From contig CAINDA010000035.1 in NCBI GenBank assembly GCA_903847205.1, positions 62,001 to 126,000 on the forward strand: 64,000 nucleotides of DNA, given 5' to 3'. Within the stretch, counting starts at the first letter, position 1. Every line of letters begins with the position of its first letter. The stretch comes from an uncultured Bacteroidota bacterium (GTDB lineage Bacteria; Bacteroidota; Bacteroidia; 2-12-FULL-35-15). A program made the position numbers and the translations under genes. This document shows, in pieces, positions 9,349 through 47,101 of the stretch. A model generated the notes under the pieces. That model saw only the letters and a list, made by a program, of their open reading frames with translations, did no database searches and had not been told where the DNA came from.

Positions 9349-9428
9349 TTCTCGCAAAGGCGCAAAGCCGCAAAGAAACAAAAAAGAATTACAACGTTAA
9401 ATTTTGCGACTCTGCGCCTTTGCGAGAA
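9349..9428. repeat. Imperfect palindrome built of CGCAAAG words, between convergent genes
   Basis: Two 27-bp arms (9349-9375 and 9402-9428) are inverted copies that agree at 24 of 27 positions, separated by 26 bp. Each arm is itself a threefold repeat of CGC plus AAAG at 8-bp spacing and begins or ends with TTCTCGC/GCGAGAA. The element sits between the convergent HAD and Lrp genes, where a folded transcript could end transcription from both sides. It has the same design as the elements at 23866, 46230, 52829 and 56355. Confidence 0.85.
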
Positions 9429-23823: not shown

Positions 23824-23865
23824 TTAATTAATTGCTTTTTTTCTTTGCGGCTCTTTTTGAAAAGG

Positions 23866-23933
23866 CTCTGTGTAACTCTGTGCTGCAAAAAATCACACAG
23901 AGAATCACGGAGAAGGCGCAGAGAACCACAGAG
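23866..23933. repeat. Palindromic element of CTCTGTG/CACAGAG words
   Basis: CTCTGTG occurs at 23866 and 23876, and its reverse complement or close variants (CACAGAG, CACGGAG, CGCAGAG, CACAGAG) at 23896, 23906, 23917 and 23927. The words are spaced 10-11 bp apart, close to one helical turn. The element fills the spacer between two minus-strand genes. Confidence 0.8.
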
Positions 23934-23943
23934 AAAAGGGAAA

Positions 23944-44658: not shown

Positions 44659-45768
44659 TTACATTAAAATTTTATCCCAGTCTTTCCAAACGGTTTCATA
44701 TCCCTGCGATTTAATAAGCTCATCAATCTGCTGAGGCGAACGATCATCGCTGATTTCAAACTGTTCGAGTGAACTCGGCGCAGCTGCATACCCGCCAGGA
44801 TTTGTTTTAGAACCAGCACTCATAGAAGTAACACCCAGCTTGATTATGTTGTTTCGGAAATTTTCATTTTCTCTCGTTGAAATAGAAAGTTCAATCTCTT
44901 CATTAAAAATTCGGTAAGCGCAAATCAGCTGTACCAGCTCGCTGTCGTTCATTATTACTTTTGGTTCAATGATTCCTTCAGCCGGACGCAGACGCGGAAA
45001 TGAAATAGAATATTTAGTTCTCCAATATTTTTTTTCAAGGTAAGTTAAATGCAGGGCAGCAAAAAAAGAATCGGTACGCCAGTCTTCCAACCCGATAAGG
45101 ATACCTAAACCAATTTTATGAATACCTGATTTTCCAAGCCTGTCAGGCGTTTCAAGACGATAATTAAAATTAGATTTTTTTCCTTTCGGATGATGTAATT
45201 TGTAATCGTCTTTATGATAGGTTTCCTGGTAAACTAAAACGGTGTTCAAACCTGCAGTAGTCAGCTCTTCATATTCGAGCTGCTCTAGCGGCTGCACCTC
45301 AATTGAAATATGAGAGAAATAAGGAGTCAGAAGCTTAATTGCATTTTTTAAATAAGGTACGCCTACTGTCTGTCCTGCCTCCCCTGTAACCAGCAGAACA
45401 TGGTCATATCCTAATGCCTTCACAGCAAGTGCTTCTGCTATAATTTCTGAGTCGCTTAATGTTTTTCGCTTGATTTTATTATCTAAACTAAAACCGCAGT
45501 AGGTACAAATATTCTGACATTCGTTAGAAAGATAAATAGGTATATACAGCTGAATAGTTTTGCCAAAACGTTTCTGAGTAAGGTAGTGGCTCAACTGCGC
45601 CATTTGTTCAAGAAATGGCATTGCGGCAGGAGAGATGAGTGCTTTAAAATCCTCCAGATCCCTCTTCGTAGTTTTATTCAAAGCATTCTCAACATCCATT
45701 TTTGTTTTAGAGAGGATACTTTGTTTTACTTCGTTCCAGTTATATGTGTTGAATAATTCGGTGAACAT
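44659..45768 (-). CDS. thiH: 2-iminoacetate synthase (radical SAM)
   Basis: This radical-SAM lyase of 369 residues cleaves tyrosine to dehydroglycine (2-iminoacetate) and p-cresol, for the thiazole ring. The [4Fe-4S] motif CxxxCxxC is C84, C88 and C91 (ECQNICTYCGF). Further family text is LLVTGEAGQTVGVPYLKNAI, LNTVLVYQETYHKDDY, and near the end GVTSMSAGSKTNPGGY. Its presence in place of thiO (glycine oxidase) suits low-oxygen conditions. It is preceded by the GxxExxY gene, which interrupts the expected thiG-thiH order. Confidence 0.96.
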   Translation of the reverse strand: MFTELFNTYNWNEVKQSILSKTKMDVENALNKTTKRDLEDFKALISPAAMPFLEQMAQLSHYLTQKRFGKTIQLYIPIYLSNECQNICTYCGFSLDNKIKRKTLSDSEIIAEALAVKALGYDHVLLVTGEAGQTVGVPYLKNAIKLLTPYFSHISIEVQPLEQLEYEELTTAGLNTVLVYQETYHKDDYKLHHPKGKKSNFNYRLETPDRLGKSGIHKIGLGILIGLEDWRTDSFFAALHLTYLEKKYWRTKYSISFPRLRPAEGIIEPKVIMNDSELVQLICAYRIFNEEIELSISTRENENFRNNIIKLGVTSMSAGSKTNPGGYAAAPSSLEQFEISDDRSPQQIDELIKSQGYETVWKDWDKILM

Positions 45769-45787
45769 TTTTTCTCGCTGTTTTAGT

Positions 45788-45816
45788 TTCTCGCTGATTT
45801 CGCTGATCTTCGCTGA
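45788..45816. repeat. CGCTGAT word repeat, left flank of the GxxExxY gene
   Basis: On the plus strand TTCTCGCTGATTTCGC and following text gives three CGCTGA words at 9-10-bp spacing over 29 bp. It agrees at 23 of 29 positions with the left arm of the palindrome at 46230-46258, in the same orientation. The two therefore bracket the GxxExxY gene as a direct repeat. It lies just before the thiH start codon. Confidence 0.75.
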
Positions 45817-45822
45817 TTTTTT

Positions 45823-46200
45823 TTATAAATTATTAACTATTCTTGCAATACCCGTTGTAATGTTATCGGTGTTGAAATTCACTAACAGCCCTAATTTAGT
45901 ATCTGTAATTTTAAGATATGTAAGTAATTGCTTATAGTGAACCGGAGCTAATATTTCAACAGATTTTATTTCGATAATAACTTTGTCATTAACGAATAAA
46001 TCAAGTCTGAATCCTAAATCCAATTTTATTTCATCGTAAACAACTGGTATCGGAACCTGCGCAGCAACTTGCAATCCTGCTTTAGCGAGTTCATATTTTA
46101 GAGCAGCCTCATACACTGACTCAAGTAACCCTGGACCAAGTGTATTATATACTTTGAATATTGCACCTCTTACAATGTATGATATTTCATTTTCATCCAT
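45823..46200 (-). CDS. GxxExxY protein (PD-(D/E)XK nuclease-like)
   Basis: This 125-residue protein has the name-giving motif GLLESVY within YNTLGPGLLESVYEAALKYEL (about 20-40). It also has a nuclease-like core, LDLFVNDKVIIEIKSVE, that fits the D...ExK active site of the PD-(D/E)XK superfamily, and Leu-rich HYKQLLTYLKITDTKLGLLVNF. The biological role of the family is not known to me. It has no relation to thiamine synthesis, yet it is embedded in the operon between thiG and thiH on the same strand, bracketed by related repeats on both sides. That suggests a recently inserted unit. Confidence 0.93.
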   Translation of the reverse strand: MDENEISYIVRGAIFKVYNTLGPGLLESVYEAALKYELAKAGLQVAAQVPIPVVYDEIKLDLGFRLDLFVNDKVIIEIKSVEILAPVHYKQLLTYLKITDTKLGLLVNFNTDNITTGIARIVNNL

Positions 46201-46229
46201 TTTGAGTAATTCTATTAGGTAAAAAATAT

Positions 46230-46327
46230 TTCTCGCGGATTTCGCAGATTACCGCAGAGTTTACTTTTTTTGGTTCTATATAATTATACATTCATCCTTC
46301 TGCGTTAATCTGCGAAATCTGCGAGAA
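46230..46327. repeat. Palindromic element of CGCAGATT words after thiG
   Basis: Arms 46230-46258 and 46299-46327, inverted, agree at 27 of 29 positions with a 40-bp AT-rich spacer. Each arm begins or ends TTCTCGC and contains three CGC words at 9-10-bp spacing (core ATTTCGCAGATTA). It starts 3 bp after the thiG stop codon and lies 29 bp before the GxxExxY start. Confidence 0.88.
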
Positions 46328-46330
46328 AAA

Positions 46331-47101
46331 TCATTCCTCCAAAAATGAAGTCAGTGGACTGCTGGCCTCTGCGAAATTTTTAGGTTTTGCCAGCCGTGCT
46401 TCATAAGCCATTCGTCCAGCTTCTACGGCAAGTTTGAACGCTTCTGCCATTTTTATTGGATTACCGGAAACAGCAATTGCTGTATTTACCAGAACAGCAT
46501 CGGCTCCCATTTCCATTGCTTCAGCAGCATGCGACGGCGCGCCAAGTCCTGCATCAATAACAACAGGCACATTACTCTGCTCAATAATAATTTCTAAAAA
46601 ACGCCTTGTCTGCAGTCCGCTGTTACTGCCTATTGGCGAACCTAAAGGCATAAGGGCTGCCACCCCTGCATCTTCTAAATATTTGCATAAAACCGGGTCG
46701 GCATGAATATACGGAAGAACAATAAAACCAAGCTTCACCAGCTCTTCCGCCGCTTTTAAAGTTTCTATAGGGTCGGGTAATAAATATTTCGGATCAGGAT
46801 GAATTTCCAATTTAAGCCAATTTGTTTCTAGTGCTTCACGGGCTAATTCAGCAGCAAATACAGCCTCTTTAGCAGAACGTACACCGGAAGTATTCGGCAG
46901 CAGATTAAATTGAGGATGTGAAAGATGTTTTAAAATATCATCATCACTGCTGTTCATCTTCACACGTTTCAGAGCAACAGTTACAAGCTCAGAACCTGAT
47001 ATTAATAAGGCATCTTCCATTAGCTGTGACGAACTGAATTTACCTGTTCCGGTAAATAATCTGGAATTAAATTCCTTATCTGATATTATTAATTTTTTCA
47101 T
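46331..47101 (-). CDS. thiG: Thiazole synthase
   Basis: ThiG condenses 1-deoxyxylulose 5-phosphate, dehydroglycine and ThiS-thiocarboxylate into the thiazole phosphate. The 256 residues form a TIM barrel with the Schiff-base lysine in NWLKLEI (K97) and phosphate-binding glycines in the segments [11 protein letters not shown] and [12 protein letters not shown]. The opening [12 protein letters not shown] is typical. It follows thiE by 5 bp. Confidence 0.97.

Follow-up and report, generated by a model that had tools for sequence, protein, structure and literature searches.

A GxxExxY gene within word-built hairpin arms in a Bacteroidota thiamine operon: a candidate miniature selfish element

The thiG–thiH insert, its arms and its protein

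In the window, by which we mean the whole 64,000-nucleotide stretch of Bacteroidota DNA analyzed here, a small gene of the GxxExxY family lies between thiG and thiH (Table 1). All three genes are encoded on the minus strand, and the order in gene direction is thiG stop codon, outer arm, 40-nt loop, inner arm, GxxExxY gene, third arm and thiH start. The sequence-only reading had described a non-thiamine gene accompanied by a word motif and a palindrome at this place, and profile matches and a repeat search bear this out; its alignment of the 29-nt motif with one palindrome arm, matching at 23 of 29 positions in the same orientation, also held when counted by eye. Just past the 3′ arm, at about 45771-45780, a partial extra copy of its first word can be made out by eye.

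Table 1. Coordinates of the insert, its host genes and two gene-less word loci in the window
Feature	Position	Strand	Remarks
Gene-less word palindrome	9349-9428		same grammar, word CGCAAAG
Gene-less words on both strands	23845-23935		same grammar, word CACAGAG; limits by eye
thiH, downstream host gene	44659-45768	minus	TIGR02351, E 1.3e-162
Downstream (3′) word arm, TTTCTCGCTGATTTCGCTGATCTTCGCTGA...	45787-45820		complementary to outer arm, 46299-46328
GxxExxY gene, 125 aa	45823-46200	minus	PD-(D/E)XK fold; TIGR04256 and PF13366 PDDEXK_3
Inner arm of upstream palindrome	46226-46258		direct repeat of the arm at 45787
Outer (5′) arm of upstream palindrome	46299-46331		reaches the thiG stop codon (46331-46333)
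thiG, upstream host gene	46331-47101	minus	PF05690, E 3.6e-107

The two arms of the upstream palindrome are 33 nt long, 40 nt apart and 91% complementary. The third arm repeats the inner one directly (45787-45820 and 46229-46262, 79% of 34 nt), and its segment 45787-45816 also pairs with the far outer arm at 80%, so that the GxxExxY gene itself lies within an inverted repeat. With two possible partners for the outer arm, the sequence could form either a small hairpin or a stem that encloses the gene. As RNA, the upstream palindrome folds at −44.2 kcal/mol (z −9.4), with none of 200 shuffles as low, and the complete unit folds with a z of −4.7. A terminal complementary stem around the gene is present: the minimum-energy fold pairs the ends of the unit, whereas the centroid favors the small hairpin. 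A known RNA was rejected as an explanation, as an Rfam scan of the window returned only matches below their gathering scores. That the repeats at this locus exceed chance rests on the family statistics given below rather than on this locus alone.

The protein matches TIGR04256 (E 1.4e-42, 144.7 bits against a curated cut-off of 35) and PF13366 PDDEXK_3 (E 5e-42, 143.4 bits against a cut-off of 22). It carries the GxxExxY motif as G24-E27-Y30 (GLLESVY) and catalytic-type residues D67, E77 and K79 (RLD..EIK). These D, E and K residues are kept in 100, 98 and 100% of 113 proteins, and are invariant in the 53 proteins of our structure alignment, which comprised the window's own protein and those of 52 of 79 loci (L054 and L086, which contain stop codons, and some others were omitted by choice). 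The AlphaFold model has a pLDDT of 95.6. Its nearest solved fold is SSO0001 (Z 9.6, rmsd 3.3, 99 aligned), which we take to be a Cas4 protein, followed by a restriction-endonuclease-like protein (Z 8.6); a fold missing from the matches of this comparison is not thereby excluded. A sequence search for a solved relative gave a single match, at E 1.2. The median dN/dS is 0.065 over 39 GxxExxY pairs, and 0.048-0.066 among three closely similar copies discussed below (L035, L050 and L059), showing that the protein is under purifying selection. GxxExxY is predicted to be nuclease-like by its modeled fold and intact catalytic residues; nuclease activity itself is inferred.

A single GxxExxY gene is present in the genome from which the window comes, alongside several word palindromes without a gene. 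Matches to one word number 11 there, against 5 for the reversed control, and matches to another number 32 against 12. Besides the two gene-less loci in the window, further intergenic palindromes of this kind lie at G000:C61:193364-193473 and G000:C45:287635-287791.

Enclosing repeats and their words among relatives

We surveyed this genome (G000) and 58 relatives, 59 genomes in all. GxxExxY genes occur in 53 of them, with up to 20 copies in one, and genes of the S23 family (TIGR02436) in 57. Of 196 relatives from the contig scan, we retained the 80 best, 79 of them distinct, and multi-copy genomes were picked for their many copies. The loci contained 262 family hits (196 GxxExxY, 66 S23), which were reduced to 165 and 51 by dropping hits covering less than 80% of the profile, duplicates and hits with short flanks.

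An inverted repeat around the gene, measured by a word-free score, reached 15 or more in 130 of the 165 distinct GxxExxY genes and 17 or more in 110. By source, the fractions at 15 were 51/76 for the nearest relatives, 17/19 for the best HMM matches and 62/70 for the others. Among control genes, YbeY reached 15 in 2 of 25 cases, and small open reading frames (ORFs) from the same loci in 24 of 127; once ORFs within 700 nt of any unit had been removed, 8 of 97 remained at 15 and 5 at 17. Of these last five, one is a DUF559 gene and one a GIY-YIG gene (both found again by HMM), one is by eye a Y1 transposase, and two have AT-rich arms. Two or more CGCWGA/TCWGCG words within 250 nt on both sides were found at 54 of 108 GxxExxY loci, as against 5 of 2766 slid windows. 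The excess of palindromes beside GxxExxY genes over random small genes, which the sequence-only reading had put forward as its check, is therefore present. No flank repeat scoring 15 was found in 35 of the 165 genes, including several from Pedobacter and two from thiamine-operon junctions with short arms (L020 and L021).

These counts bear on the objection that AT-rich flanks yield inverted repeats anyway. In its favor, a few YbeY genes and small ORFs do reach the threshold. Against it stand the enclosure of most GxxExxY genes, the hairpin z value of −9.4, the slid windows and both control sets, and we regard chance composition as all but excluded. On the family counts, it is very likely that the arms and the GxxExxY gene form one element.

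The arms of GxxExxY units are complementary and consist of short CRC-words (CGCAGAT, CACAGAG, CGCAAAG and others) that recur about every 10 nt; words of the same build found at individual loci include CACAGAG, CACAGATT, CGCAAAG, CACTAAG, CACATAG and ACAGGAT. A single fixed repeat family was considered and rejected, as loci without CGCAGATT-type words often carry other words of the same grammar. The CGCAGATT palindrome to which the sequence-only reading had tied the gene is accordingly a single variant among the many words that follow this grammar, and that claim is corrected to this extent.

The S23 family served as a comparison, since the ORF found in rRNA intervening sequences (IVSs) encodes S23. 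S23 genes, too, are enclosed by inverted repeats (45 of 51 at 15 or more; 19 of 27 above 17 in an initial look, in which 27 of 30 loci were scored), and their words, such as TGAGATnTGAGAT and TAGGTnTTAGGT, have a period of 7. Autocorrelation peaks at lag 10 in GxxExxY arms and at lags 7 and 14 in S23 arms. At least two CRC occur in the left arm of 107 of 130 GxxExxY units versus none of 45 S23 units, and left-arm 4-mers separate the two families with an AUC of 0.989, versus 0.66 for DNA 150 nt further upstream. The separation also holds within genomes: in two that contain both families (G035 and G044), CRC is found in 5/6 and 3/5 GxxExxY units and in 0/12 and 0/6 S23 units.

Within the GxxExxY family, word distance correlates with protein distance (r 0.39 over 6161 pairs labeled as different in genome and in site; none of 1000 permutations was as high, the largest giving 0.13). 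Units with arms over 70 nt were excluded from this test, which left 113 of the 130, and its genome labels are incomplete. At equal protein distance, pairs from the same genome had the smaller word distance in a single bin out of five (12 pairs, 0.615 vs 0.762) and an about equal or larger one in the other four. Words track protein lineage more than host genome, as far as these incomplete labels allow. Arms and gene travel together, and therefore shared descent alone can yield such a correlation; it argues against random cargo or free cargo exchange, without being proof of recognition. Two copies in one genome (L181 and L183), 85% identical over their match, have CACAAAG-type and CGCAAAG-type words, respectively, in both arms; the like difference in both arms indicates that words change in concert.

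Palindromes are not confined to these two families, and the sequence-only reading needs a second correction: other small genes (S23, DUF559, GIY-YIG) have palindromes of their own. Enclosure scores of 17 or more were reached at 19 of 24 DUF559 loci, 11 of 24 GIY-YIG loci and 1 of 25 YbeY loci (in each case from 30 loci, truncated ones excluded). The DUF559 domain (PF04480) lay within long ORFs at 19 of 24 loci. Nine ORFs were translated, eight of them long, and Pfam searches of four identified the host in three, as methionine synthase, acetyl-CoA synthetase and leucyl-tRNA synthetase, the host match of the fourth falling under the cut-off. The presence of host-enzyme domains in these ORFs means that translation runs through DUF559 and its palindromic arms in the frame of the enzyme; the peptides encoded by the arms are of the LTPSPSPKERG ... 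SFGEGPGVRS type.

Individual cases of these other classes are as follows. The core enzymes identified by Pfam are at L282 (MetH), L297 (acetyl-CoA synthetase) and L294 (LeuRS); DUF559 lies in frame in enzymes, by eye, at L284, L287, L291 and L307, and L303 belongs to the in-frame set. Of the 24 GIY-YIG genes scored (L310-L339), 11 are flanked by palindromes such as the GTCATCCCGTG.., TTCGAGTTTATCGAGAA and CCTGAGCTTGTCGAAG types, present as inverted copies. One ABC-transporter operon (G044:C2:43500-53052, loci L267 and L213; host genes named by eye) has five consecutive junctions occupied by S23, S23, S23, GxxExxY and DUF559 units, each in sense orientation.

We lean slightly against, without dismissing, a bolder reading in which bacterial palindromic repeats generally would be families each owned by one small nucleic-acid protein. 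The pairs would be GxxExxY with CRC words of 10-nt period, S23 bundles with words of 7-nt period, RAYT with REPs, DUF559 with CCTCACCCC..CTCTCC hairpins, and GIY-YIG with CCCGTG or TTCGAG hairpins. In the periodic classes, the protein would read a word that each arm contains several times, and word and gene would drift jointly. If this reading is true, the 23S rRNA IVS is a member of the class that landed in rRNA.

Position, copies and junction states

GxxExxY units are strongly oriented: between co-directional neighbors, called by a simple longest-ORF rule, 112 lie in sense and 15 in antisense (p 8e-20), and for S23 units the numbers are 43 and 0. They also fit closely between genes. Among units with arms scoring at least 17, arms up to 60 nt and co-directional neighbors, the unit fills a median of 96% of the stop-to-start gap for GxxExxY (59 units) and 99% for S23 (27 units); unit-free gaps were compared at the thiamine junction only.

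An RNA-level element is the main rival to the nuclease-based reading preferred below, although the two may be compatible. In this rival, the unit is the mRNA counterpart of the 23S rRNA IVS: the arms form an RNA stem cut by RNase III, spread occurs through RNA or recombination, and the protein binds or guards the RNA. The sense bias and the stop-to-start fit speak for it, as does the presence of S23, the protein of rRNA IVSs, in the same kind of unit. Moreover, the Coxiella IVS has a 28-bp terminal stem that is cut by RNase III in vitro (PMC4990558). However, a sense bias would also result from dependence of the gene on the operon promoter or from a cost of antisense units, and GxxExxY has a DNA-nuclease fold. 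We consider the RNA-level reading possible.

Near-identical copies do occur at different sites. In three Bacteroidales metagenome-assembled genomes (MAGs), GxxExxY copies 83-93% identical lie at unrelated sites (L035, L038, L039, L044, L050 and L059; the comparison of L038 and L044 had a long enough flank downstream only). In some of these copies the shared sequence continues for about 100 nt past the word arms and has an outer inverted repeat. There the unit does not end with its word arms, and the position of the ends may vary between groups.

A second rival treats the gene as a passenger, captured by independent, MITE-like palindromes that are moved by an unknown transposase. It is favored by the excess of gene-less palindromes over the single GxxExxY gene in the window's genome, and by the outer inverted repeat of the Bacteroidales group. 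But the words are specific to the cargo family and follow its lineage, dN/dS is low, and of the four palindrome classes seen, three have a nuclease family as cargo. We judge this explanation unlikely.

A plasmid- or phage-borne transposon was considered and ruled out by database counts: only 8 of 72,556 plasmid records (plasmids or second chromosomes), all typed non-mobilizable, contain GxxExxY, and 50,697 phage records gave no match at E 1e-5. Three of these eight distant copies score at least 15, one of which looks like a GC-rich chance case. Clear arms are seen in two, both from Bacteroidota (Bacteroides finegoldii and Bernardetia). Elsewhere, the Sphingomonas copy has left words only, directly after the fabD stop codon, the Gemmatirosa copy has a word palindrome downstream and the Treponema copy one short pair. 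Beyond Bacteroidota, the arms can be called no more than possibly present, in part.

The thiG–thiH junction itself exists in several states. The thiH gene is found in 22 of the 59 genomes, the window's own included. At the 21 places in relatives, two have GxxExxY units (L178, and L158 with an in-frame stop); one (L161) has a scar with the last codons of the GxxExxY gene and a degraded arm; one (L168, on a contig shared with L019) has a gene-less palindrome of the same words; eight are empty, with gaps of −2 to 30 nt; eight contain other inserts, of which six are by eye other palindromes, one with a short reading frame; and one lacks thiG upstream. Thus, the proposal of the sequence-only reading that the unit of about 540 bp is an insertion held, and the junction comparison that it had suggested yielded empty, gene-less, scarred and full states. 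Likewise, at what we take to be the preT-preA junction, the window's genome has a gene-less palindrome where a relative (L040) has palindrome and gene, by eye. As a separate observation, the several other palindrome types at thiG–thiH (L160, L163, L169, L171, L172 and L176) would suit an insertion hot spot or a tolerant gap.

Four more loci carry the unit at thiG–thiH (L020, L021, L023 and L056), all with word arms, weak in L056. The observation that would have refuted the sequence-only reading, the same gene order in distant thiamine operons without repeats, was therefore not made. In a tree of the 165 GxxExxY proteins, from which the stop-broken L158 was left out, these four and the window's own copy group in a single clade, together with L019 and L022. 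The latter two sit elsewhere in the thiamine operon, at the junction just after thiF. L178 falls in a different clade; at least two protein lineages therefore reached thiG–thiH, and a single ancient insertion as the whole story at this junction is rejected. Because most thiG–thiH copies share a clade with the two thiF-end copies, the unit may owe much of its presence at this site to descent along with the operon and not to new insertion; for this first clade, such descent and relocation inside the operon are equally open explanations. The tree weakens the thiamine site as evidence of fresh insertion, and leaves the family statistics unaffected.

These data also bear on a host function, with the hairpins as intercistronic regulators or terminators and the nuclease serving repair or defense. 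Purifying selection, rarity on plasmids, absence from the phage records and a thiamine-operon clade common to several lineages fit this view. Against it stand patchy presence at one junction, with empty sites and a scar, and the host genes beside inspected units, which share no pathway. We find a host function very unlikely.

Interpretation and known systems

By a modest margin, we favor the view that the unit at 45787-46331, about 540 bp long, is a self-propagating miniature selfish element in which hairpin ends and nuclease gene form one unit. The unit, its word grammar, family specificity, sense bias and stop-to-start fit are shown, as are near-identical copies at different sites, the empty, decayed and filled states of one junction, purifying selection and intact catalytic residues. 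Cleavage, word recognition and copying are inferred. A nuclease engine acting on the hairpins is the best single reading, and remains an inference. The proposal that GxxExxY genes are carried by this palindrome family is accordingly well supported; the stronger alternative of the sequence-only reading, that they are its enzymatic part, has only indirect support from family- and lineage-specific words, intact catalytic residues and low dN/dS, with activity inferred.

In the mechanism that we propose, the arms could pair in the operon mRNA, making the insert a hairpin-closed segment between two cistrons. The host would tolerate it because its limits lie close to the stop codon of one gene and the start codon of the next. 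The nuclease would recognize the hairpin formed by its own words, in extruded or single-stranded DNA, and cut either that hairpin or a target junction; repair would then place a copy of the element in another intercistronic gap. Deletion across the repeated arms would give rise to gene-less palindromes, which may then move in trans, as is thought for REPs moved by RAYTs.

More than 100 relatives sitting alike between genes suggest a kind of miniature selfish element that has hardly been described. In the open-access literature searched, GxxExxY appeared as a virus gene-table entry and was named beside a reverse transcriptase, PF13366 appeared elsewhere as a list entry only, and no title or abstract opening described such units (Bacteroidetes palindromes, words, S23/IVS, DUF559, GIY-YIG and in-frame elements were covered). 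The roles of the GxxExxY and S23 families acquire a testable context: both are genes of hairpin-ended units, each family with a word grammar of its own. This connects a protein family that lacked an explanation with intergenic palindromes that lacked one too, and with the long-standing puzzle of rRNA IVSs, and what spreads these palindromes becomes a question of binding and cutting.

It is useful to set these units beside known systems. Like REP/REPIN sequences and their RAYT (TnpA_REP), they combine intergenic palindromes with a dedicated small enzyme gene, and gene-less copies exist beside a single gene. Unlike them, their enzyme is a PD-(D/E)XK protein rather than a Y1 HUH transposase, PDDEXK_3 being the unit's only gene, and their arms are tandem words of about 10-nt period that enclose the gene and vary from unit to unit. 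With the 23S rRNA IVS and its S23 ORF they share one small gene in complementary ends that can close a transcript hairpin, at a place where RNA breakage should be harmless; indeed, sister units here carry S23-family genes. They differ in lying between mRNA cistrons such as thiG and thiH, in carrying a nuclease-family gene instead of S23 and in their periodic-word arms.

Rickettsia palindromic elements (RPEs), of about 150 bp (PMC10969869), are likewise palindromic selfish inserts that the host tolerates, and the DUF559 units in frame in enzymes resemble them. GxxExxY units, by contrast, are intercistronic and not in frame in coding sequence, and RPEs are not known to carry a nuclease gene. MITEs and insertion sequences also have inverted ends and gene-less derivatives, but the GxxExxY unit lacks a DDE or HUH transposase, is rare on plasmids, is strongly sense-biased and has repeated-word ends. 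Finally, homing endonuclease genes offer the parallel of a small nuclease gene as selfish cargo. The GxxExxY gene differs from these in being a separate ORF between two intact genes, without intron or intein, that occupies many sites and has hairpin ends.
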